A stretch of DNA of 64,000 bases. Origin: Owenia fusiformis (taxonomy: Eukaryota; Annelida; Polychaeta; Sabellida; Oweniidae). Location: the NCBI GenBank assembly GCA_903813345.2, contig CAIIXF020000012.1, positions 27,974,184 through 28,038,183 of the forward strand, in the 5' to 3' direction. The first letter of the stretch is position 1. The number at the start of each line of letters is the position of its first letter. Positions 15,842 through 62,700 of the stretch are shown here, in pieces. A program made the position numbers and the translations under genes. The notes below the pieces were generated by a model, which saw only the letters and a program-made list of their open reading frames with translations, ran no database searches and was not told the origin of the DNA.

Positions 15842-18800
15842 TTATTCATCGAATATCCCTTGGGCTGGACGTATTACTTTAGTCTCTGCAAGAAGTGCAA
15901 TTGTCAAGAAGGATATGTATAAAATAAACAGACATATTCCGTATATTTTGCTAACTTTGAACTTCAAGACCGGAACTACGACGATAGAAAACAGCATAGA
16001 TGCCCATACTCCAGCGCATAGTATTGTCTGTTGGAGGGTAAACTTCACCTGTAACAGAACACGTAGTCCTAGAGACAAAAAGAACCATATAGTAATATAT
16101 AATACATTATTGTACATATTAAGTTATATAAACTAAAGCAGAAGTTGCATGTAAGCCAAAACTTTTTTTCAAATTCTGGATGCTCTGGTTCGTATTTTGA
16201 ACCTATGAACTTTATTTCAATTTATTGATGCTAGCTTATAGCATGTCTACTGCCGCTATTGTTTTCGATGAAAAATATCCCATAATACATTGGAGTATTT
16301 TAAACATAAACAAGGTTTGGGACTTGCTGGTTCAAATACATCAAACGTAGTTTAATTTGGAGTTTTGGTAAAATTGGTAAAAACTAGGATCCCTTCACTT
16401 TACTCAAAGGGCTAATAGTTTCAATTCTTCGTAAACAATATCTAGTAAACAGTCTATTTTTATCATAATCATTATGTTACACAATCAACACTCTTGGACA
16501 TTAACATTCGTTTTTATAATCATTGGGGCTTGAAAACAGTGACACTTACGATTTCATCCGTTGCCCTCCTTCGAATGAATCTAATCGTAAAAGGAATTCC
16601 AACTCCCAACAATAGATCTAGTTAAAAGCTAAGGAAATTGTAACAGATCGGAAAGGCATACTAGACGACGACTGCTGTTCTCAAATATATAATACTAAAT
16701 GTACATGTATATCATAGAATTATTTCCCAATACAAAACTAGGTCACAATTATGAATGCCATTTATGCATAGCACGTATATTTAATCAATAATAATAATAG
16801 TGATATTTTGTAAAATTGTAACTAAAATCAAGAGATGTTACGACCCAACTGCCGTCGACATTTTTATCTTTATTTAATCTTATAATAGAGTAAACATAAG
16901 TAAACCAAGACGAAATTCAAAGTCTAAATATTATTGAGGTATGAATATGATAATCTAAAAAGGATACTGAATGTAGGTCCCCCAAAACACGCCGCAAAGC
17001 CCATTCTAGGCTCTCCTTTACGTGCCATCACAGTATTGGCGATCAAATCTGAAACCACGAATTGTCAACAAGAAAATATGCATCTATGTATGTTATAATA
17101 TAAGGTAAACAACTGTTCATCAAATACGAAAACAAATGCATTGAATTACTTGATCATTTGCACTTGGACGATACATATACAAATATTACTCTCAAAATCA
17201 GATCTGCCTCTATAAATAAGGACTAGAGCGTGTGACTCCTGATAATTACATAACAGTTGATGTTAATCTACCAATCGTATTGTAAAGAAGGTGCAACATT
17301 TTAAGAGTAATACCTCCGACACTGTTTCCCCAAGCGAGTAGTGTTAGTCCAAGGATCGCCTTTGAAATGTTGAACACCACCCCATAACTCTGAAATATTT
17401 AGAAATCATCATTTTTTAATAAATGCCTACAGTACATATGATTTTTTTCATTTGTTTTTCAATTCATGATCAACTCAGTCAATGTTCACATTTTGTCGAA
17501 AATAATGTCATGTAAATTCAGTCAAATGATCAATAAACAGACTACTCAAAAGCATGAACTTGATATTTCCATTCTGTCTAAAATAATGGGCAGAGAAGAT
17601 GGCAATTTTCATCATTTTAATTTGTTTCATGTATTTTTACTGGCCAAGTACAAGTACAGCGCCCTTCAAATAATGTCAGGTAAACAGATTGAGTCGTAAT
17701 CTTAATATGGCAAAAAAATCTTCTATCAGGGTCTCAGAGACTATAAAACGTACATTAATAGTGACAGCAGATAATGATCTTATGGCGCTGCCATTCCAGA
17801 ACAATTCCATTAGTATATCAGAATACAGGACTGCAGAATGCCCAGTTAGGTACGACTCTGTTTCACCAAGATAGTGTTATGCTCGTCGGTTATTAAATGA
17901 ACTCTTACAACATTTGGTTATCTATGGATGTTTTTCACTAACGGCCTAAATAACAAACCATGCATTCTATGATGCAATAGCCTACCTCTAAAATATTGAC
18001 GATTTCATTACATATAGTATAAATCCAAATGATTGCAATGAGGAATCCAATGTACGCGAATAACCAGTGGTATATCGGTGGTTGATCGTATTTTGATGTG
18101 AAGAATACTATACATGCAGCAACGACACCTATGATAAGAATCAGGGCCCAGACCGGAAACCGTCCACCAATCATTGTAGTCCCAACTGTAATTCAGAGAA
18201 GAGTTAATCATTAGATTATGAGCGTTAGGGTCTCTGATATCAAAAAAAATATTAAACATTATCAATTTTTGACAGAAGAAAGTGTAAAAACAAAAACTTT
18301 ATTTGACAATATTTCAGCTAATCGAAATGAGAAAACTGTATATTCTGAAGGAGTATACTTTTGTCAAAAGATTATAAAACAACATTGGAAAAATGTAACG
18401 AAAATACGGAATCAAGATGCTTCAGAAAACTTTACCTTCTCCCGCCATGACAAACCAGACTGGCCCGGTTACGCAGTGAATCATGGTTAGAATCTTATTC
18501 CAGTTGTTCATATCTTCCTCGTAGTTCACGACTGGGACAGTTATCGTCAGTGCGAATATGATTGGAGCCTTGAGAAAAATATTTAACAATTTAAATCTGA
18601 TTTGCGTCGGGAAAAGTAAAGTTATAAAAAGTATCTAACATTATAACTTTTGTTATCTTAACATGTATAGGGGTTTACTGTCTGTACGCCTATGTAAACG
18701 TTTCAATTTAATTTCAAAAAGCTGATTTTGAAGAACATTTTGTTTGAAAAAGTTGTGAGTTTATTTCAAAAAAATTTAGTCGTCACACACAAAAATAATG

Positions 18801-21800
18801 TACATAGATGAATGACATACATCCAACCCTCTGTATAATCTATATAATTGCCGAGTGATTTATACTCGGATAACCGATATATTTACACATTTCTGGTAAG
18901 TAATACCTTTATTATTTCATAGATTTTCACTATGATGTTCATTTCCCCAAAACCATCAACATCAATTGGGCAGATTTTCCAGAGAAACTGCGACAACAGG
19001 CTTCCTTTCGTAGCCCCAGGCTCGGCATCCTTTGCCGCTTCGAGTTCTGAAATGTATAAATAGTTGTACGTCATGTTGGATTTTCATGGATATATAAGCG
19101 GAAATGCCAAAGTAAGGGTGACTAAAAACTTTAAAGAAACCCAACAAGAAAAGCAAACTGTAAGTGTAAATCTGTCATAAGGAAAGTAGACCCAATATAT
19201 CCCAAAACCATGATCTAACGTGAAAAGAAACGATGTCTAACATCCCCCTCCCCCTCCAATCGAGAACCAATATCATGGATATTAGAAAACGAAATAGTCT
19301 TGAATTAAGCCTCTAGACCCCTCCCCTTCCCTATCTTCTTCAAGGGTCTTTGTTTTTGGACAATTCCATTCACTTACTGGCAGCAGATCACTGCAATCCA
19401 AGCTCATTTGAATAGGTAACTACGTACTGGATAAAGCATAAGAATGAGATTTTATAAGAAATAATACACCGAAGGCCGAAGGCCTGAGGTTATTACTTCT
19501 TATCAAATCGAATTCGAATGCTTTATCTTACTTAAATCACACACATTCTTATTACAGGTAAATGGTCTATTATATTACAGTTAAAAGGTCTTTAATCCGG
19601 AATAATGTGATTTCTTTTGTATTGACTATTCAAACTGTGAATTTTGCAAACTTCAACCAGGCTCACAATGACCCTGGCTCTTATTGGTTAACATTTGTTG
19701 TTATATAGCCAATTAATTGTAACAACAAAAAGAGTTGGTTGCATTGACCTCATGAGTGTGAGTTGATGTAAGTGACTGAGTGGGCTATAATTAGTCTAGC
19801 TTCAGTGCACTACAGGTGACTGTCCAGTCCAGAACATTGAATTTGAATACAGCAGAATATTTGTAAGTAAGATAAGATCAATGATGTAGATAGCAACAAA
19901 AAATGATAAATTGTTTTATTCTAAAGAATGCACAGTAACAAGAGAAGGGTACATGTATTTTTGTATATTGTTTTTTAGGGAATGAAAACTATCAAAAACG
20001 GTCAATGGTCATTTATGTCTCACTTGTTTTTGATAGCTTGCCAAGTGTACATTCTTTAAAAACAATAGAAAAATAATGCACTTTCCTTTTGATAAAACCA
20101 TACATTCTTAAAAATAAACCACAGCAAATTCTATTGTGTTGCTACCCAAGTGGGATTTAATTAAAAATAATTGCGACAAATTTGTGACTTAGCTAATTTA
20201 AAATAAAAAAACATTAATTTATTCTCTAAGCATTATTTGTAAGTCCTTTATTGTTTTGAGAGTTATTCGTTTTTGCATTAAGTTATATTTATTAATAAGA
20301 CATAACACATGCCTTACCCTTTTTTATAACTGGATCCATATCTCCTAAAATAAGAAACAATACATGAAATAAAAGACGCATGCATTGTTGTACAGTATTC
20401 TAAAAACTATTTAGATCTTCCTTCACAATATGTTTACAATCACCCTTAGTAAAAGCGCAAAATATAGACACACACTGATCTGTAGCCGCAGCTAGAGAGC
20501 CAAGGAGTTTACCTTCGAAAGCGGAATTAACATGGCCGTTTGAGCTTGGGATCGATTCCTTCCCTCCGATCAGTTCCGTCACGTCGATGAAAGAAATATC
20601 ATAAGTCTTTTTATCGCTCACTTCTGAGAATGGAACGTCAGAGGACACAGACATAGAACGCTGAATTGATTGTGTGTCACCACTTTTCTCCACTACAACG
20701 ATAAAGCAATCGTCATGAGAGACGCAGTTGATTAAACAAATTTCAAGTCAGCCGGATCCAAATCCAAAACGTTTTAGGGGTAATTTAGATCTTCGTTTTT
20801 CCTCAACGGTCCGGTACATGAGAAAAACATGTTTTTATTCGATCGTACTCACATTCACTCGCTCGTGAGAGTTTTCTCGGAAGTTCACGCTTCTCAAATA
20901 CCTTCCTTGACACCACCACTACTATGACGTATACAGCGTAAAACCCCATAAACCCTAAAAATCAAAAAGTTGATTAAACAGTTCTTCTGGTTTACCAGGT
21001 CCTCTAATATATGGCCTAAAAGTTAAGGGCATCGCGATGGTATATATAATTTATTTTGAGATTTGAATTTGCATTGCAACCCCATTTCCCTCTAAATATT
21101 TGACCAGGTGATTTACAGAGAAATTGGCCACCAAAACCTAAAAATTGAGTTATCATCAAACGACCTTTGATTAACGCATATTATAGTTACTATACTAGTG
21201 TTCGTGTAAAAATTTGATATTTCTATATTACTGTACCAATAGCTTCTCCCAGATAAACACGCTTCCTGTGAAGGATTGCGAATGTCCATCCAACAGAGGT
21301 GATATAAAACAAAATGTCTCTAATGTGTGGCCGTTTCATACAGGTAAACGGTCTCACGAAGGCAATAGCTCCAGCTACCACAGTAGACACGAATACCCCG
21401 GCTCCTGAAAGTATATAGTATGGCATTGAAGTGCAAATATACAATTTTGGTACACTCTGGTAAAGTTTGACAACCGGAAGTACTTTATCGGATCACATGT
21501 TAAAATTTATGGTATTTGTGTTTGGAGATTTCAATAAATTCATTAAGTTTGTAATTTTCTGACTTATTGAACCCTACATGTAGTAGCAAAATTAAGATAA
21601 AACCATGTATAATGTTTAAAACGCTTTATAATGAACATTTTCGATGAGCAAAGATGAAAAGGGGTGCTCTCATGTTTACACATCTAAGTCTTCTAACTCC
21701 CTATAAATGTCTATGTTAACATGAAATTTTAGTTTTTGATGCTTTAATATATCCAACTTTTACATGATATAGCACCCAATTTAACTCATTTTGCATAAAT

Positions 21801-24800
21801 AAAGAAGGGGGATCGAATCCCAGAATTCCTTGCCGAACATCTGACAACTTGAAAAACGAGGTAAGGGACCGATTTGGTAATAATAGTACCATTATCGTCA
21901 TCTCTTGACTAAATACTTTATCTAGAGATGAAAATTAAAGGAATATCATTACCAAATTTTTCCATGCAAGGCAAATGAGAATCGGGCAGGAATCCTGCTT
22001 TCCGATCCTACTTGATAAATAAGTATGTACCTAAGAGACCTCCTACTGACATCCCCATGTCGCCATCTTTCATGCTGTCAATTGAGGCGATGGACGAAAA
22101 GACATCTGGGGCGCCATTGCCAAATGCAAGAAATGTGACACCTTACTACAGTTAAGGTAGTGTACACAAGTGAAACTTAACACTACTAAATATTTTGTTA
22201 TTATCTACCCAAATAAATATATAGAAGTCGAAGCTACGAAGAATTAAGAATATCTTATAGCTGAAGGCACTCATAAGATCATTTTATACGATCACTAATA
22301 AGTTTTTGCGCCATTAAAATCAATTGCAATAACTAAGGATATGTTTTATGTATGTGTTATTACCTTGTGAGTAACATTGCATATAAAAAACGAAATATTA
22401 TCATTTGGTGCTGTGAGCTTACTATAATTGAAAAGGATATTGCCACATTTGGACTTATTCTTAGGGTATCCGAGATAACAACAAGTTGGGGGCAGAAGCT
22501 GAAAAAAGAAATAAAAGACAAAAAATGCGTGATTAAGTTATAAGGCCACTGTACATGAATAACGTAAAACCTGTGTATTCGCCAATGTGTGAAGTGGTTA
22601 ATGCGAATAAATTGTATACTATGACCTATATTGCCAATACTGTGATTTGCTGGATGCTCAAAAAGGGGTCCCAACCTTACAATGTTTTGGTCTCATACCA
22701 TTCCTTGTCAAAATGATGTGTTAATCTATCTAAAAATATGGTCGCCACTTTTTTATTAATTACAGTAAGGAACATTTTCACCGCCTAAATCTCTAATTCC
22801 GCATCTAAGGAAATAGTAAAACGCAACATATATATTTTTATGTACAACTGAGACAAAAAGGACCTCAATTTATTAATTGCATCCCTATGTCAAAAACCAT
22901 GACTTACAAATCATCTGCCGTAACTGCCAGTCCAATGAAAAGAAAGAGCCACCAGAGAAACTGAAAATCACATAAGAAAGGTTTCGTGTAACAGTCTTAA
23001 CATCATGCATTCTTATATGTAGACAACATACACATACCATACGGTTAGAGACACATGTCATGAGTGTTAATATCACACGGTAGATCTGATTTAAAGATCA
23101 CATTTCAAATTATCTTAAAAGTATGTTCTGAGACTATCGAAAAGCAATTTATATAATGGTATTGAACTGAAAATATGTCTTTGAAATGCACGTGTACTTA
23201 TATGTCAAAATATTTCACTTTACTCACAGGGCATATTTGTATAATTGTATTGTGATAAGATCAGGTGGAAACTTACGCAAATAAATACTCCGAGAGGAAC
23301 AAGGTTGGTGCCTAGTGAACAGTATATGAAATTGTGATAAGATCAGGTGGAAACTTACGCAAATAAATACTCCGAGAGGAACAAGGTTGGTGCCAAGTGA
23401 ACAGTAAATGAAATTGTTGTAATTGATGAAACCGTCATCGTTCTTACAGTCGTCTGTATTCTGTACAAATCTGCACCACATTGAACTGTTATATTTATGT
23501 ATGTCTCTGCAGTCCTCCTAGAATAAGATAGTACTGGTATATAGTGATATGAAAAATAATATAGATACTCAACGATGTTCATGTGCTAATTTTTATTTTT
23601 CCAGTTTAAGAGAAAAATAATATAATGCAAATTATAAATTGATTAATTCTTAATGTATAGGAATAGATCTATTCTCTAATGAATTAAGTTATATATTTCT
23701 AATAAGTGAGCATTGATAATCTGTTGTGAATATGATTATGATTTTTTAATTATTGCTGAAATTGTATACTTTTTCATAATCAATACCTATTTAAATCCTC
23801 AAACAAACTCAGCAAATGGTAAATGAATGAAATGACAATGAGATAAAGTACAGGGTACTCATATATAATTTTTGCACAAAATTATTCCTATATCCCAAGG
23901 AAATATTGGGCAAAACTAATGCTTCCCCCCCCCCCCAACTCTAGATTTTAGGATCTAACTCTTTGTATTTTTATGATTCTTTAAAATTGTCAAGAACGCA
24001 TATAAAAATAACGCAGTGTCACATTTGGTCTACATCGAACATGCATTAGGCAATTAATATCTGGAAGCTCTTACTATGTTGTTTGTTGCTATCGTATTAT
24101 TTCTATATTTGCTATATTTCTATGATGACCCTAAGGAAGGTCCTTGCTGAATTAACCTCAGGTGTATTTTCAGTAAAACAAATTCAAACTAAAAGGTTTA
24201 GACAGAAGCGGTAAGGAGGAGGTACTCGAAAACAAAAACAACATCTTCATGATTGTGATTGTGAATCTTGTGCATACTTGTATAACAGTTTAGCTACTCC
24301 TCTGGCAACACATCTCAATACATCTCCCGATTTGGAAGTGAACATTGATTGGGTAATAAGGTAACTATAGTTCGTTACTTACTCATTATAATTTATTTTA
24401 ATATCTACTAACTTTTGTAGATGAAAGAACATTATACGTAAGTCGAGGAATTGAAAAAATGATTTTTTCTCAAACAACATAGGATAAAGTAGGCCTCATA
24501 GCAAACCGAAAATAGTATTAAGCTACTATTAAACACAGTGGTGGTTGGGCATTTTGGTTCACAGCATTTCAGTTAAATAATAAACTATATTAAAAAGAGA
24601 TTGACAATATATTAAGAATGGCTGCCAACATTCAAGAAGAGAGTATCAATACAACGGCAATCGGACTGGAGCCTACAGCAGCGACGTATGACTTGATAGC
24701 TCATGCAGTGTTTGAATCTATAGTTGCACTTCTTATAATTGGAGGGAATGTCATAGTACTGACCACTCTATTGGCATTTAGGAACTTGCGCACAATTAAC

Positions 24801-27800
24801 AATATTTTTCTCATGAGTTTAGCTGTAGCGGATCTCTTAATGGGTGGCATTGTATGTCCCCTAACTATCCACAGACGGTACTTGGTACCACTTTTGTATG
24901 GTGAACACACGCAGGATAGGTGGCTATGCGCAATTGGACTGTATTTAAAGAGTGTTTCCCTTGGTGCATCTTTGTTTAGTATGGCTGGAGTTGCTTTAGA
25001 TCGATATTTTGCAGTCATGCATCCTTTACGTTATGGGACTTTGCTAACCCGTCGAAACGTTTCGGCTTATATCATATGTGTGTGGATATACATGCTATCT
25101 GTTTGCATGTTATATTTCTTCAGTAATAGAATTGGATCTGGGGACACTTGTAGTATAAAACGCGTTGCTTCGGTTGGTATGTTCGCCGTAATTAAAGTCA
25201 ATATCTTCATCGTAATGCTTCTAACTGTTATTTCACATACAGTAGTAGCAGTTCTTGCTCAGAAGCACAGGGCAGCAATCAATGCAGAGTTGGTGCGCTT
25301 CAGTAATAACATGGCCGTTGCGCACCGCAATGAAAACAAAATTGCCAAAACAATGACCTTAATGGTCGGGGTGTTTCTGTTGTGCTGGCTACCATGGACA
25401 ATAACTTCGTTTATTCGATTGAAAGAAGAACCAGTTTGGTACGAGTCATTCCGTTATTACACGACTATATTGGTAGTGTCGAATAGCGCGATGAATCCCT
25501 GGATTTATGCCACACGACTAAAGGAATTACGAAAGGCGATGGGGAATGTCGTAAGGTGCAAATATAGATGACGTGCATCCATTCTGTTAGTCCAATGAAA
25601 CTGACATTGACTACATATAGCCCGTCATAGAGTTAAAATGAACATTGACATATATAGCCCGCGATCGACTGTGTAAGTTCAAATGAACACTGACATTGGT
25701 TATATATAGCCCGTCGTCGAGTCAAAATGAACATTGACATATATAGCCCGTCATCGACTGTGTAAGTTGAAATGAACACTGACATTGGTTATATATAGCC
25801 CGTCATCGAGTCGAAATGAACATTGACATATACAGCCCATCATCGACTCTTTAAGTTCAAATGAACACTGACATTGGTTATATATAGCCCGTCATCGAGT
25901 CGAAATGAACATTGACATTGAATATACATAGCCCATCATCGAGTCAAAATGAACATTGACATTAAACCTTCTTCATTGTCTGTAATCTAATTGTTAGTCA
26001 AAATGAACCTTGACATTGAAAATATATATCACATCCTGGCATTGACTTTCAAGAGAAGGGTGTACTCTGTGAACTATAAACGTGATAACTTCAAAATGAG
26101 CAGAACTATGTTTCCCTTTTTGATAATAGAGAGTTTTAGATGTTAATGTTAATATTGTATGTTAATTTCTGGCGCATCATATTATAACTTGTTATTTCAC
26201 GTCAAGATAAAGAAAAGTGTAAGCAAGGCATATGTTTATATCGATTAAAATTTCATATTGACGTGCGTAGCCTAATTCAAAAATCAAAATGGGGGAAATT
26301 GTGTAACAAACGAAGGTGGTAAGCAATATAGCTTAACTAATTTGAACTATAACTTTTCTCTATAATGTCAAAAGTGGCTCAAAACAATGTTAATTTTTCA
26401 TTTGGTACTTCTTCCGTCCATAATTGTCATATTCTTATAAATCGTCGCATATACGTAAGAATATCACACATGTGGACGCATAGCCTGCACAATTAATAAT
26501 GACGTAAGCAAACGCTACATAAGTTATAAACTAAACGGGAATAATAAACATGCTACTATAAGTAAGTTGCTAATTCTCTCTATTATTATTACTGATGACA
26601 ATTTTTAGTTGTCATAATATTATTGATAATGAAAATACTGTATTTTTACGTAGTTGTTAAACGTGATACTGATCTATCAAAAGGAATTTGTCCGAAATAA
26701 CCTTGTCCGATTATCATTAAAATGGGTGGATCATCAACTTGTTGAGTTGTAATTAATCAATCAAAATGGGTCCTAAGTTTATTATTTGAGATAATACATT
26801 TTATGTAGTCATAATTAATTAACTCATTATCCTCGTTTTAATTCACATTTGACTTGTATTCACATTTGTTTGTATCACAATGTTTGTTTCGTCATGAGTA
26901 CGCGATATTCACTGGTGAATATATTCTTTCATTAAAAGATATATTGCCATTAATTAATCAAGTACAGATCATACATGAACTACCCAAATACCAGTGACAT
27001 CAAAGGTATCCCTCATTGTAGTACTTGTATTTACAATTTACAGTTTTCAATGAAAATGCATGCTAATAAGATGTTGAAATCTGGAAAACAGCATTTTTAG
27101 CTGAATCTAATCTATCTGAATATATTTGTATCTTGCTCACTGACTTACAGTTCGTACGAAAGCATATTACTGCACTTCTTCATTGCTCAACATGATCGGT
27201 TGAATAGTAATACGTAGTGACAAATGCTGTACCATAAATGTATTAAATAAAACTCATAAATTTATTGAAATAAATTTATTAACTTAGTAGTACGTAGTGA
27301 AAAATGCTATCCGATAGATATATGTTTGAAATTAGAAGTACAATTTCTTCAGACTCATAACTTCTTAGGGATATAGATTTAATGCATGTCCTTGGTTACC
27401 CTATATATTGAGACCAACGCATTTTGGCGAACAAAAGTAGCCATTCGTCACACTTCGTAAAACATTCGCAACAAATAGTTATCTTACATTACCATTCGTT
27501 TTGTTTTGAAATTATGTAACCGATTTTGTAACATTTTCGCTCAAGATTCGTCAGAATTGACAAATTTTCCTCATGAGCCAGGGTGCGTTCGGTGAATTCG
27601 CTCATATGTGAGGGGGCCTTTAGGCACAAATCTGATCCCCTAAAGTATCAAAGATTAGTAACCTTCACCTTGTAAGAAGTATGATAATTTCCAATCCAAC
27701 TTTTAAAAAACCTCATAATGTACTTCAGCTTAATCAATTATTCACTGTCTACTTGAAGCTTCAATAATAACAGGAAGTATTTATGTCTAAGTCTAAAACA

Positions 27801-28246
27801 GCTATTCGCTATTTAATATTTTTTACTAATTTTGAGATTACTCGAACAGTATTGTTATATTTTGACTGATATATCAAAAGCATTTTCGGACAGTTTGGCT
27901 ATAGAACCCAAATGTCTCCGCGGTAAAATAAGAGTGGTCAGTCAAAATAAGTTATGTATCAGTATATTTTGATTACACTTACCTCTTCCTCTGTTTTATT
28001 CTGCTGGGTGGCGTTTGTTGAATAAAAAACACTTCGCCTATGACGTAAATGAAGAGTTTCCGGGAAATCCGCAACTGAAAATTTCGTTTCGAAATCAGCG
28101 TCTATTGGTTTATTTATCCTCGTATAGGCTTCGTGAGATGAATATGCAACTATTGCAAAGAACGATAGAGATGCCATGCCAAGTTTGAAAAATATGTGGT
28201 CAGTTTTCCGGATGAAACCATCCTTGAGAGCATTTGTATTTGCCAT
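15842..28246 (-). CDS. SLC8B1: NCLX-type mitochondrial Na+/Ca2+ (Li+) exchanger, 16 exons
   Basis: In transcription order: 28246-27983, 23517-23359, 22960-22908, 22498-22441, 22142-22031, 21404-21237, 20954-20853, 20692-20513, 20344-20318, 19046-18907, 18568-18436, 18185-17986, 17389-17314, 17048-16968, 16617-16550, 16048-15842; 2,028 nt, 675 aa, all phases consistent. The Cys-rich N-terminal segment (EDCRDIHKYN...WCRFVQNTDDC) precedes helix 1. The alpha-1 repeat carries TADDFFCPQLVVISDTL and GNGAPD (186-191); the alpha-2 repeat carries GNSVGD (553-558) and ACFGGPTFNLLLGVG. A long cytosolic loop (~290-430) separates them, and KIYGICLFILYISFLTIALL is the last helix. Human NCLX exports Ca2+ from mitochondria in exchange for Na+ or Li+; orthology is inferred from both alpha repeats and the N-terminal cysteines. 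The first coding intron is 4.5 kb and houses a GPCR gene. Two introns look U12-type. Confidence 0.93.
16618..16967 (-). other. Probable U12-type GT-AG intron of the exchanger gene
   Basis: On the minus strand the intron opens with GTATCCTTTTT, which matches the minor-spliceosome 5' site consensus RTATCCTTT. Near its end it has TTTCCTTAGC, one base from the consensus branch site TTCCTTAAC, about 13 bases before the terminal AG. It splits an Asn codon in the alpha-2 repeat (GGPTF-N-LLLGVG), and family conservation across the junction fixes both boundaries. Confidence 0.7.
19431..19530. repeat. Imperfect palindrome in an exchanger intron
   Basis: GGATAAAGCATAAGAATGAG... TTATAAGAAATAATA is mirrored by TATTACTTCTTAT...GAATGCTTTATC, around a short GC-rich centre GAAGGCCGAAGGCC. 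It would fold into a hairpin with arms of about 40 bases. It may be a miniature element. Confidence 0.6.
22143..22440 (-). other. Probable U12-type intron with AT-AA ends in the exchanger gene
   Basis: On the minus strand the upstream exon ends ...SPNVA. The intron opens ATATCCTTTT, a perfect minor-spliceosome AT-type 5' site. CCTTAACT, matching the U12 branch site, sits 10 bases before the end. The reading frame (NVA|GVTFLAFGNGAPD, conserved in this family) requires the intron to end in TAA, not AG; the AG one base later shifts the frame. There is no GT donor near the exon end that keeps the frame. Confidence 0.75.
23251..23414. repeat. 82-bp tandem duplication spanning an exon end and its splice donor
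   Basis: Two near-identical 82-base units (23251-23332 and 23333-23414) each contain the minus-strand coding end GTNLVPLGVFIC and the donor GTAAGT. The unit nearer the exon body (23333-23414) supplies the donor used in the model (exon end 23359). The outer copy is a decoy; its use would add 82 bases and shift the frame. Confidence 0.9.
24618..25571 (+). CDS. Rhodopsin-class (class A) G-protein-coupled receptor, intronless
   Basis: One open frame, 317 aa, with seven membrane helices. Landmarks: Asn44 in GNVIVL (helix 1), LAVADLL with Asp72 (helix 2), Cys104 opening helix 3 and Cys178 in loop 2 for the usual disulfide, DRY at 128-130 followed by FAVMHPLRY, Trp156 (helix 4), CWLP at 256-259 (helix 6) and NPWIY at 293-297 (helix 7). 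An N-glycosylation site NTT is at residue 11. It would sit in the plasma membrane and signal through G proteins. Lys111 occupies the position where aminergic receptors carry Asp, and helix 5 lacks the usual proline, so I do not assign a ligand; the general look recalls adenosine/orphan receptors. The start ATG at 24618 is the first in frame. The gene lies inside intron 1 of the exchanger on the opposite strand and may be a retrocopy-derived gene. Confidence 0.93.
   Translation: MAANIQEESINTTAIGLEPTAATYDLIAHAVFESIVALLIIGGNVIVLTTLLAFRNLRTINNIFLMSLAVADLLMGGIVCPLTIHRRYLVPLLYGEHTQDRWLCAIGLYLKSVSLGASLFSMAGVALDRYFAVMHPLRYGTLLTRRNVSAYIICVWIYMLSVCMLYFFSNRIGSGDTCSIKRVASVGMFAVIKVNIFIVMLLTVISHTVVAVLAQKHRAAINAELVRFSNNMAVAHRNENKIAKTMTLMVGVFLLCWLPWTITSFIRLKEEPVWYESFRYYTTILVVSNSAMNPWIYATRLKELRKAMGNVVRCKYR
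25600..25980. repeat. Minisatellite downstream of the GPCR
   Basis: About eight degenerate copies of a unit containing ATATATAGCCCGTCATCGA and AAATGAACATTGACAT. Units alternate between roughly 40 and 48 bases, so the higher-order period is near 90. It begins within about 30 bases of the receptor stop codon and so probably lies in its 3' UTR. Its strand in the exchanger transcript is antisense intron. Confidence 0.85.
26030..27982. other. Intronic AT-rich sequence of the exchanger gene
   Basis: This is the rest of the large first coding intron. I see no exon, RNA gene or clear transposon. A short duplicated string TACGTAGTGA-AAATGCT occurs near 27211 and 27291. Confidence 0.45.
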
Positions 28247-32449: not shown

Positions 32450-38185
<5,736 letters not shown>

Positions 38186-52682: not shown

Positions 52683-55206
52683 TAGCCTTGCCCAAGTCGC
52701 ACAGCGAAAAATGATACAATATCCTGCCTGGATATTTGCGAAATATTATAGTGATATGGAACGTATCCTTAAGAATCCGTGACAAATACTCTAAGTATCG
52801 CGATTTTGGAGATTCACGGATATTAGTGAGAGACGGAACACTGGTATCCTGAAATATCCATAGTTCTGGATACTACTGATATACATCACGTCTTTTCGCG
52901 TATTCTTAGGGGTATGACTAATATATGATTCGAATACTCACAAATATAGCTGAATATTCAACAATTTTCCGGGATATTTAGGGATACAGTTCGTAATATT
53001 TTTTGGGATATTCACGAATACGGTCGGGATTGCAAGGAGATTTTCGTTCATATTACCTAACAAACTAAACACGAAATGACGCATTTAAATACGTACAGTT
53101 TATTATCTCATCAATACAAATGAGATGTACGATAGGTGTAAGCATTAAAACATCTGATCACAAGGATGTATAACAATGACCACATCGATGTACTTAGGCT
53201 GTTCTGCTACTTTTACATCTCCTACTTGACGTCCTTCTTCACTTAGGAACTGATGTGGCTGCCATGCTGATCATTGTGTGTTCAATAATTTGAATTTCGA
53301 CTTGTAGGAAAATGCTCGATGTTTAAATTAGGGGCATTGATAACGTTGTAAGTTGTAACGATATTTCGTCTCAATTTATTGATAGCGCGCGGACGTCAGA
53401 GAGCAAACTTCCGGTTTGATTGCAATGTTTTAATGGCGACTAATATTTGTGTTTGTTACCTTATTTAAAAGCCATTTTCAGTGTCTACGAATATCGAAAT
53501 GTAGTAAACAAAAGTTTCCTAGTAAAGTTCATAAGATTCTCTACAAGATGAATTCACGTTTATATCTTGAAAGTACGACCGAAGCCAGATATAATGAGAA
53601 AACTACGAAATGTACAAGCTAAAATTCGACAGATTCACGGTATTATTGAAACAAATCAGTTGACATGAAGGAAATGTTGTTTCTACTTTAGTTGTTATAA
53701 ACGTTAATATACCCTCCATGCTTAGAAGCAAACTTTTCTTCGAAGCGCAGCTTATTGTCGATGAAATCGTTGATTGAATTTCCCAAACAAACACAAGTTG
53801 GAGTACCCAAAAATATCCTTTCGAGGATATTTCCGGATATTCGAAGTATCGGTGTCTATGTCTATGTCGATAATCTGCAAAAGGCTCATAAGCCCATATG
53901 AAGCAGATATATGATTTAACAGTAATAGAATTTGAAAAGAATATAACTTAAAACCTTAACATTTAAGAATAGATATATTTTAGACAATATCCCAGGAACT
54001 TTATTTAATATTATCTTCCATGCTTAGAAGCAAACTTATCTTCGAAGATCAGCTTATTGACGATGTAATCTTCGGTCATCATGAATTTCCTGTCTTTCAT
54101 ATGTCTGAATTTCCCAAACACAAGTTTTTCGATGGCAGCCATTTTGAGCAGTTAAGATATCACGAGGAGAATGTTGTTTCACTGCAGAAATTCATACAAG
54201 ATATTCCACATTCTATATGGCGAAACAAATGTTTCAATGACACTAAAATTGTTAATTGAACGTTATAATTTATGTACTAGCATAATTTCCAGGAATCAAT
54301 ATTCCGGATACTTAAAAAATTTTCTGGATACTAGGGTAGTCAACTATCCTGAAATATCCTTAATTCGGATATGTTGAAAGTTGGAAACTTGGAGTATCCA
54401 AAAATATCCCTTTGAGGATATTTCCGGATGTTCGAAGTATCGGTATATTTTAGGTTATTCAAGGATACCTCAAATATCCGGGATTTGCGATACGTACGGA
54501 AACTATAGGATATTACACCATTTTTCGCTGTGTCGGTCTCTTTTACTGATCTTGATTTCTATTATGACCGCCTTGTACCAAAGAGAAAGCCACGTGCTTT
54601 ACCGACAGTTTGTTGATGTCGGTAAAATTTGACCAATCAACGGCGGCCCTGTAGCGTTAGCTCATTATTATGCAGGGTCAAAAACAAGTACACTTTTCAC
54701 AGGGACTTTTCACGAACAAATCTTGCACGAAACTAAGCACAAATTCATCATGAAAATACAAATACAACATGACCCGCTACATTGGACTTGGTATTCGTGC
54801 ATTTTCATCGCGAAATCAGTTTTAAATCAACATTGAATCGCATTATTTGATTTATATTAATGAATCTCACCTTCGAATGTACGTTTAATTGCATAATGTA
54901 TTGTAACTCTAATGAAACACTCGATCAGATCATTGAATTTCAAGTTGTAGACGGGAAGTTTGTTTTGTTTATGCTGTTCAACCTGATAACGTTTTGATTG
55001 GTCATTCAGCCTGAAGTCACACGTCGTGTCCACGCGTATATCTGTTAATCAATAAGGTTTCGCGATACCCCTGATAACGTAGGTATTATGGAAATCTCGA
55101 AACCGTTGAATATCTCAGCATAATAACAGCGGAGATGTATTGGATTGTACAAGGCGGTAATAATTCAAGATCAGATAAGTAAAAAATACCGACTTGGGCA
55201 AGGCTA
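52683..55206. mobile_element. Mutator-like miniature element, split by a nested insertion
   Basis: Ends are TAGCCTTGCCCAAGTCG on both sides read inward. The 9-base string ATTAAGGAA flanks it (52674-52682 and 55207-55215). Nine-base target duplications are typical of the Mutator superfamily; that placement is inference. Without the nested element (52700-54532) the unit is about 690 bp with ~60-base inverted ends (CCGCCTTGTAC on both arms). A second copy begins at 63352 and is not interrupted. Confidence 0.85.
52700..54532. mobile_element. Nested 1,833-bp element with CACAG ends and 3-bp target duplication
   Basis: Terminal inverted repeats read CACAGCGAAAAATG inward, extending to about 25 bases ending in AATATCCT. 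The target TCG is duplicated (52697-52699 and 54533-54535). CAC-type ends with a 3-bp duplication fit the CACTA/EnSpm group (inference). The interior is rich in GGATATT/AATATCC motifs. It contains an internal direct duplication (CATGCTTAGAAGCAAACTT near 53719 and 54020; AGGATATTTCCGGAT near 53825 and 54415). A frame at 54020-54259 encodes 79 residues with no recognised domain; no transposase was seen. Confidence 0.88.
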
Positions 55207-59700: not shown

Positions 59701-62700
59701 CCAGAAGGTATACGATGGCCCCCAGGAGCTATACCGTGGCTCCTGAAACGAAGCTATACAGGAGCCCCAAAAAGCTACATGATGGCCCCAAGAATCTATA
59801 TGATGGCCCCCAATGGCTCCCAGAAGATGTGAAGGGCCCCCAGTAGCCCCTAGAAGCTATATGGTGGCCCCCAGTGGCCCTCAGAAGCTATATGATGGCC
59901 CCCAGAAGCTAATTAGTGGCCCCCAGGAGCTATATGGTGGCACCCAGAAGCTATACAGGGAACCCCAGTCGCCCCAAGAAGCTATACGATGGCCCCCAGA
60001 AGCTATACAGCAGCCCCCAGAATCTATATGATGGCCCCCAATGGCTCCCAGAAGCTATACAGGGCCCCCAGTAGCCCCTAGAAGCTATACGGTGGCCCCC
60101 AAAGCTATATGGTGGCCCATTGGGGGACACTGTATAGCTTCTGGAGGCCATCGTATAGCTTATGGGGGCTACCGTATAGTTTCTGCGGGCCCTTGCATAG
60201 CTTCTGGGGGCCATCGTATAGCATCTGGGAGCCACTGGGGGCCCCTGTATAGCTTCTGGGGACTACAGTACAGTTTCTGCAGGCCCTTGCATAGCTTCTG
60301 GGGGCCATCGTATAGCTTCTGGGAGCCACTGTGGGCCCCTGTATAGCTTCTGGGGGCCACTATATAGCTTTCGGGGCCACTGAGGGCCACCGTATAGCTT
60401 CTAGGGGCTACTGGGGGGCCCTTTATAGCTTCTGGGAGCCACTGTATAGCTCCTGGGGGCCACTAATTAGCTTTTGGAGGCCATCATATAGCCTATGAGG
60501 GCCACTGGGGGCCACCGTATAGCTTCTAGGGGCTACTTGGGGCCCTTCACATCTTCTGGGAGCCATTGGGGGCCATCATATAGATTCTTGGGGCCATCAT
60601 GTAGCTTTTTGGGGCTCCTGTATAGCTTCTGGGGGCCATCGTTTAGCTTCTTGGGGCCACTGGGGTCCCCTGTATAGCTTCTGGGAGCCACGGTATACTC
60701 CTGGGGGCCACTAATTAGCTTCTGGAGGCCATCATATAGCTTCCGAGGGCCACTGGGGGCCACCATATAGCTTCTGGAGACCATAGTATAGTTTTTGGGG
60801 GCCCTTGTATAGCTTCTGGGGGCCATAGTATAGCTTCTGGGGGCCCCATGTAGCTTCTGGGGGCCACCTTATAGCTTTTTGGGGCCACTTGGGGCCCCTG
60901 TATAGCTTCTGGGCGCCACCGTATAGCTCCTGGGGGCCACAGGGTTTCCTGTATAGCTTCTGGGAGCCACCGTATAGCTCCTGGGGGCCACTATTCAGCT
61001 TCTGGTGGCCAACATATAGCTCCTGGGGGCCACTATTCAGCTTCTTGGGGCCACTTGGGGCCCCTGTATAGATTCTTGGGGCCACTGGGGGCCATCATAT
61101 AGCTTCTGGGGGCTTCTGGAACCTAATAATTAATGTATTTTGCCAGGTTTCACCAAAATCTTCAAATATGGGGGCTGTCGGGGGGGGGGGGTTAAATTAA
61201 TTAAGTTATAATTTTTCTAAACAAATTCATGCGACTATTTATCTCTAAAGCAAAGGGAGAATAACTTCCTTTTAACTCATTAAGAACGTGAAATGTAAAA
61301 ACCTCATTATCAAGTGATGTTACCATAGCATCTGAAATGTTAAAAATATTACATAAACCATATGATGAATCATCTTCACTTTTAATCATGCTATATACTT
61401 CAGATGCTTTATGAATCAATAATATAAAGAATATGATGAAAATCAGACTATATGTATACTATTTATATGAATCATTGAAAGTGCATGGTAAATTATAAGA
61501 TTGGATCTTGAATATATAGGGTCGAGATAACCGTTTTGACCCCTGTGAATGATAGTCAAAATGCATGTAACCTTTCCACATACTTATTAGTTCAGTTCAA
61601 TACATGCACATTTTTACTCAATAAGATTGAAACAACTATGGTTGTTACTTTTTTTGTTAATTTAATGTTCTTTTTATAAACAATGACGTTCACAGTAGCT
61701 GCCTCCAAAGCTGGATAATTTTGTTAATTCTGATCCAATTTTGAAGATTTGTTGTCTCTTTAATGTTGCTTATATCTTCTACTCATCAAATAAGGGACAA
61801 AACTATGCACACATTCTGTCATACGGCCTCAGTTCTAATAGATATGTTGCTATACTACGATATTCTGAACAAAAAATGGATTGATGACGTGACAATTAAT
61901 GCAAATTAGCTAATTTGCATAACTTGATATTGTAACCATATAGTAAATTTAATAAGGTTTAATCAGATACCAATATCATCTCTTTAGACCAAATAATGGC
62001 GAAGCTACATTGATTCAAGACTCCAAGGTAAGACGTATGTATATTATTGTTAAATAATGACATTCACGATATCTGCCTTGAAAGTTACATAACTTTCGTA
62101 ATACTGATTCAATTTTGAATCTGTTTTCACTTTTATGTTGCGTATACCTTCTACTAATAGAATAAAGGACAAAACCTTTCAGAAATTTTGCCATACAGCC
62201 TCAGTTCTAATAGATACGTTGCTATAGTTGGAAATTCTGAACCAAAAATAGATTGATGACGTCATAATTTATGCAAATTAGATAATTTGCATAAATGAAT
62301 ATCAGAAATTTATTGGAAATTTAATGAGGTTTAATTTGGTACCAATATCATTTCTATAGACCAAATAATGACAGAGCTACAAATGATTTAAGATACCAAG
62401 GTAAGATGTCTAAAGATGCGTAACCATGGTAACTGAATGCCGCCATAAAAGTACTATGGGACATTATTTGGCAATGTTAACAAATGAATTCATTAAATAG
62501 ACACCCTAGGGATTACAGAAATGTATGTAACTTATTCACACCTTATGGGTGCATGGGAGCCCCTTGTTCCTACTATACTATTACTTTGACGGAACTTGTT
62601 AACGGCCATACCTCTACACGTAGCTCAGTGAAACAGCTCCAAGTGTTTATTAGAGTCCTATTTAGCTTATCATTACATGATAATGATACCGTGACCACAA

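Follow-up and report, generated by a model that had tools for sequence, protein, structure and literature searches.

A predicted minor-spliceosome intron with AT-AA ends in an NCLX (SLC8B1) gene of the annelid Owenia fusiformis

U12-type introns with AT-AN ends (the A type) are characterized by a CCTTAAC-like branch site near the 3′ end. They also have a ATATCCTT donor and a variable last base (PMC2831892; PMC8280824). AT-AA is a known class of minor introns (PMC10639083; PMC8280824), and AT-AG has also been reported as an A-type end pair (PMC8280824). According to PMC10639083, non-canonical ends occur in about 3.8% of orthologous animal minor introns, with AT-AA as the commonest such pair, and the share of AT-AA among non-canonical pairs in animals is less than half of the almost 75% found in plants; the product of these percentages puts AT-AA below about 1.4% of animal minor introns. 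Switching between the GT-AG and AT-AC subtypes is known as well, with 36 reported clusters holding both subtypes (PMC2831892). The two types also respond differently to the loss of CENATAC: when human cells were depleted of it, 92% of A-type introns, among which AT-AA introns are counted, were affected, versus 24% of G-type ones (PMC8280824). No paper describing a minor intron in SLC8B1 (SLC24A6) turned up in a search of open full text, and an earlier listing in supplementary tables or intron databases is possible. Intron 4 of an NCLX gene of Owenia resembles the AT-AN introns in donor, branch site, and variable last base; it shows no difference in kind from them and is predicted to be a further AT-AA case. 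The initial annotation had called AT-AA ends rare even among U12 introns, of which the rarity stands, but AT-AA is at the same time the commonest non-canonical pair of animal minor introns (PMC10639083).

The gene lies in a window of 64,000 nucleotides (the whole stretch of DNA analysed) on a 36.7 Mb contig of an assembly of 498 Mb in 525 contigs. Its model was assembled by eye from homology and splice sites, the first exon being the least certain part. The identity of the gene as NCLX, proposed in the initial annotation, is backed by Pfam PF01699 (Na_Ca_ex), which matches the 675-aa protein in two stretches (E 1.5e-51), and by two distinct sequences among solved chains matched at E < 0.001 (E 4.5e-125 and 3.7e-125, the latter being 9z4i, in two stretches). 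Both solved sequences are named NCLX or mitochondrial sodium/calcium exchanger, so the protein combines two Na_Ca_ex repeats with similarity to solved NCLX across both of them. All 16 exons are open, with no frame error in the 2,028-base coding model around position 22143, and 14 of the 15 introns are GT-AG, intron 4 alone being AT-AA. The coordinates are collected in Table 1.

Table 1. Features of the NCLX locus, in positions of the window
Feature	Position	Strand	Details
NCLX (SLC8B1) gene model	15842..28246	(-)	16 exons, 2,028 bases, 675 aa, one terminal stop, Pfam Na_Ca_ex
Exon 4	22441..22498	(-)	ends ...ISPNVA
Intron 4, predicted U12-type (minor), AT-AA ends	22143..22440	(-)	298 nt, phase 0, alpha-1 repeat
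U12-type 5′ splice site of intron 4, ATATCCTTT	22432..22440	(-)	9/9 vs RTATCCTTT
U12-type branch site of intron 4, TACCTTAAC	22151..22159	(-)	8/9 vs TTCCTTRAY; branch A at 22152
Competing AGs near the 3′ end of intron 4	22142..22147	(-)	AG ending 22146 (6 nt past branch A): immediate stop; AG ending 22142 (10 nt): frameshift
Exon 5	22031..22142	(-)	starts GVTFLAFGNGAPD
Intron 14, second predicted U12-type, GT-AG	16618..16967	(-)	GTATCCTTTT...TTCCTTAGC...TAG, phase 1, alpha-2 repeat (within FGGPTFNLLLGVG)

The locus and its surroundings hold several further features. A tandem duplication of 82 bp (window 23249-23417, 97% matches) copies the end of NCLX exon 2 together with its GTAAGT donor; splicing from the second donor would lengthen the transcript by 82 nt and break the frame. 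Within intron 1, on the plus strand, there is an open frame of 325 aa (window 24594-25571) for a receptor of the rhodopsin family (7tm_1, E 7.6e-40), and beside this nested gene lies a tandem array (window 25594-25963) whose period is about 45 or 89 bp. Elsewhere, an open frame at 36406-36729 contains a hemopexin repeat (PF00045, E 1.1e-11), and a minisatellite-like stretch at 59951-61094 has long open frames of simple repeated words (GPQKLY..., WGPSYSF...), some of them overlapping on opposite strands.

Donors and branch sites were scored against the U12-type consensus sequences RTATCCTTT and TTCCTTRAY. Intron 4 starts with ATATCCTTTTCA, its opening ATATCCTTTT agreeing with the donor consensus at 9/9 positions, as expected from the perfect AT-type 5′ site of the initial annotation, and it ends with CTACCTTAACTGTAGTAA, followed by GGT GTC ACA, so that the 3′ junction reads TACCTTAACTGTAGTAA/GGT. 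The branch adenosine is the second A of CCTTAAC and lies 9 nt before the last intron base, slightly closer than the 10 bases first noted. Among the 15 introns of the gene, donors score 9/9 in introns 4 and 14 and 2 to 6 of 9 in the other 13. Branch sites score 8/9 in the same two introns and 5 to 7 of 9 in the rest (7/9 in three of them), which means that the branch motif discriminates minor from other introns less well than the donor motif.

Neither motif is meaningful alone, because each is no commoner in the window than chance allows: on both strands RTATCCTTT occurs 3 times against 2.19 expected from shuffles, and CCTTRAY 27 times against 35.6. A further candidate AT-type intron, with ATATCCTTT at 53813 (+) and CCTTAAC at 53954 (+), was set aside, as no coding context was seen and 2.19 such donors are expected per window. 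For a donor at a fixed exon end combined with a branch site 7-21 nt before a fixed exon start, the joint frequency per intron is about 7e-8, which amounts to about 1e-6 for all 15 introns of the gene. Chance becomes untenable for intron 4 because minor introns occupy exactly this position in two further copies of the gene. The motif scores, the joint frequency, and the introns of the paralogues thus agree with the minor-spliceosome class originally assigned to intron 4.

The predicted ends of the intron, AT and AA, are demanded by the reading frame together with homology to solved NCLX. The junction NVA/GVTFLAFGNGAPD is obtained only with the AA end, and NVAGVTFLAFGNGAPD is identical in the two distinct solved NCLX sequences, the window protein being the same if the AA end is used. 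At the junction position, where they lack an intron, two SLC24-like genes of this genome read DVAGATF; the residue count at the junction is therefore fixed, since the solved sequences agree and the SLC24-like genes read through it uninterrupted. The AA end yields a protein of 675 aa, as compared with 178 aa for the AG 6 nt past the branch adenosine, 201 aa for the AG at 10 nt, 196 aa for the AC at 17 nt, and 204 aa for retention. Both the forced TAA/GGT end proposed at the outset and the frameshift predicted for the AG one base downstream are thus borne out by the gene model, the latter ending translation once 201 of the 675 residues have been made. With a GT end 12 nt past the branch adenosine, the frame would be kept at the cost of one glycine, but GT is not known to serve as an acceptor end. 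A scan of alternative ends covered donor shifts from -6 to +9, the pairs GT-AG, GC-AG, AT-AC, and AT-AG, and ends 4 to 24 nt past the branch, listing in-frame combinations only. It gave four candidates, all rejected: three, among them the AG at 6 nt combined with the donor in its original place, run into a stop at the junction, and the fourth, an AT-AC pair, removes part of the alpha-1 motif. No retrocopy with a spliced junction was seen in a genome search with intron 4 and both flanks, which matched only its own locus and one paralogue exon.

Protein searches of the genome with both repeats located four further NCLX copies besides the window copy (A): B on contig C6, C on C12 at 9.69 Mb, D on the 25 kb contig C221, and E on C12 at 31.35 Mb. 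At the same codon boundary as intron 4, B has a GT-AG intron of 401 nt (GTATCCTTTT...TTCCTTAATCAGGAATAG/GGT) and C a GT-AG intron of 1859 nt (GTATCCTTTA...CACCTTAACATAAACACAG/GGG), both with 9/9 donors. In D, the acceptor CACCTTAACTTAGACCAG/GGT carries CCTTAAC with AG 10 nt on, and no donor was seen in the contig stretch ahead of the exon. The minor class at the homologous position is hence found within the genome in B and C by 9/9 donors and AG acceptors, and in D by the acceptor only. All three alpha-1 donors seen are U12-type, and CCTTAAY is present in all four acceptors with the branch adenosine 9-11 nt from the end, which is AA in one and AG in the other three; the 9 nt of the window copy is the shortest distance (10 nt in B and D, 11 nt in C). 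The alpha-1 branch sites of C and D reach only 7/9, a score also found in three of the 13 major introns in the window gene. On these sequences, intron 4 is a predicted minor intron common to the NCLX copies of the genome, with the window copy differing in subtype from two GT-AG paralogues. As in the subtype switching described in PMC2831892, one intron position has two subtypes; in NCLX, however, both subtypes are found among paralogues within a single genome, and the A-type intron has AA as its 3′ end.

Over the whole alpha-1 segment, the window copy agrees with solved NCLX at 51% and is the most diverged of three, versus 60% and 63% for the others, while D shows 57% over a shorter segment. 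A tree of six rows leaves all three inner branches open and gives no direction of subtype change. The fifth copy, E (C12:31345305-31347688), was found by its alpha-2 exons. It may be partial, because no alpha-1 exon was seen in a motif search of the 20 kb ahead of its alpha-2 part.

The second predicted minor intron of the window gene, intron 14, has a branch match, TTCCTTAGC, without an A at the usual branch place and with an A one base earlier. U12-type alpha-2 donors are also present in all four other NCLX copies. The scored donors have 9/9 in A and D and 8/9 in B, and those counted by eye are GTATCCTTTT in E (9/9) and GTATCTTTTT in C (8/9).

Three other explanations of the ends of intron 4 have to be considered. 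In the first, the intron is minor and is spliced mainly as AT-AG through the AG one base on, so that most transcripts are frameshifted and the gene is of low output or decaying. The position of this AG, 10 nt past the branch adenosine, matches the AG distance in paralogues B and D, and AT-AG is among the A-type pairs reported in PMC8280824. The state of the gene nevertheless makes this highly unlikely: translation would stop after 201 of 675 aa, yet all 16 exons remain open and the protein still aligns with solved NCLX across both repeats, which is not expected of a gene no longer making protein. The predicted exon 4-5 junctions also differ, being AATGTGGCA/GGTGTCACA under AT-AA and AATGTGGCA/GTGTCACA, frameshifted, under AT-AG.

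Somewhat less probable still is an assembly error, in which a wrong call at the last intron base (22143) would conceal true ends of AT-AC or AT-AG. A single base would suffice, and the genome search gave one full match, hence no second haplotype as a check. However, 22143 lies outside any long homopolymer, and the surrounding 2,028-base coding model has no frame error. Usual assembly error rates are far below about 1.4%. AT-AA, though under about this share of animal minor introns, is the commonest non-canonical pair (PMC10639083). Finally, an AT-AC intron shifted inward, with the donor two bases on (ATCCTTTTC) and the acceptor CAC 17 nt past the branch to give NVAIFLAFGN, is scarcely credible: although no other AT-AC combination of the scan stays in frame, it gives up the U12 donor register, drops the alpha-1 GVT retained by the three other copies whose alpha-1 exon can be read, and departs from the intron position used in the paralogues. 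By far the best reading, and a very probable one, is that intron 4 of the window NCLX gene is a minor-spliceosome intron with AT-AA ends.

The genome contains the machinery for such an intron, with Rfam matches over the cut-off for U11 (two), U12 (two), U4atac (one), and U6atac (two). Both U12 copies contain GTAAGGAA, and the one U11 copy read starts with TAAAAGGG; by eye, the former can pair with the branch site and the latter with the donor. The Pfam CCDC84 (CENATAC) model gives three exon matches over the cut-off within about 16 kb on contig C10. A-type introns are known from a MutS homologue, and no RTATCCTT was found within the 3 kb examined at the MutS locus. In contrast to this locus, the importin-5 (IPO5) gene on C4 has an AT-AC intron of 775 nt that keeps the frame (KFYFHD-G/ATATCCTTTAAT...TTCCTTGACTTCACTCAC/GA-VRVAAAESMP) and is, by the same reasoning as for intron 4, a predicted minor intron. 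It shares with intron 4 the A-type donor ATATCCTTT, and by eye its branch site TTCCTTGAC lies 10 nt before the end; unlike intron 4, it ends in AC. In human IPO5, intron 21 is listed among the minor AT-AC introns (PMC8280824), the correspondence with the Owenia intron being by gene only. On this reading, A-type minor introns are present in at least one other gene of the genome, in keeping with the AT-AA interpretation of intron 4. The same region has a 100-bp tandem array, with eight copies seen in each of two overlapping loci, whose unit comprises the end of an intron, its acceptor, and an exon start (TTTTTCAG/ATGTACGTAAAGAC...).

In the splicing of intron 4, U11 would pair with ATATCCTTTT and U12 with ACCTTAAC, and U6atac would then take the place of U11, the roles of these snRNAs in minor splicing being well established. 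The AA 9 nt past the branch adenosine would become the 3′ end, probably helped by the CENATAC of the genome; we infer both the actual use of the AA end and a contribution of CENATAC to the splicing of this intron. The AA/G and AAG/ pair one base apart might even act as a switch, with CENATAC-dependent A-type splicing leading to full-length NCLX and the neighbouring AG to an early stop. This is a very unlikely proposal; if true, the output of a mitochondrial calcium exporter would track minor-spliceosome activity, and the GT-AG paralogues would escape.

With intron 4, the AT-AA minor introns gain a well-supported predicted member, in a gene for which the literature searched reports no minor intron. 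It also offers a natural comparison of the A type with the G type, one paralogue having the intron as A-type and two having it as G-type within one genome, while the transcript of the window NCLX would carry one A-type and one G-type minor intron together. With such subtype pairs in one genome and in one transcript, the reported preference of CENATAC for A-type introns would be testable with an internal control, outside mammals.
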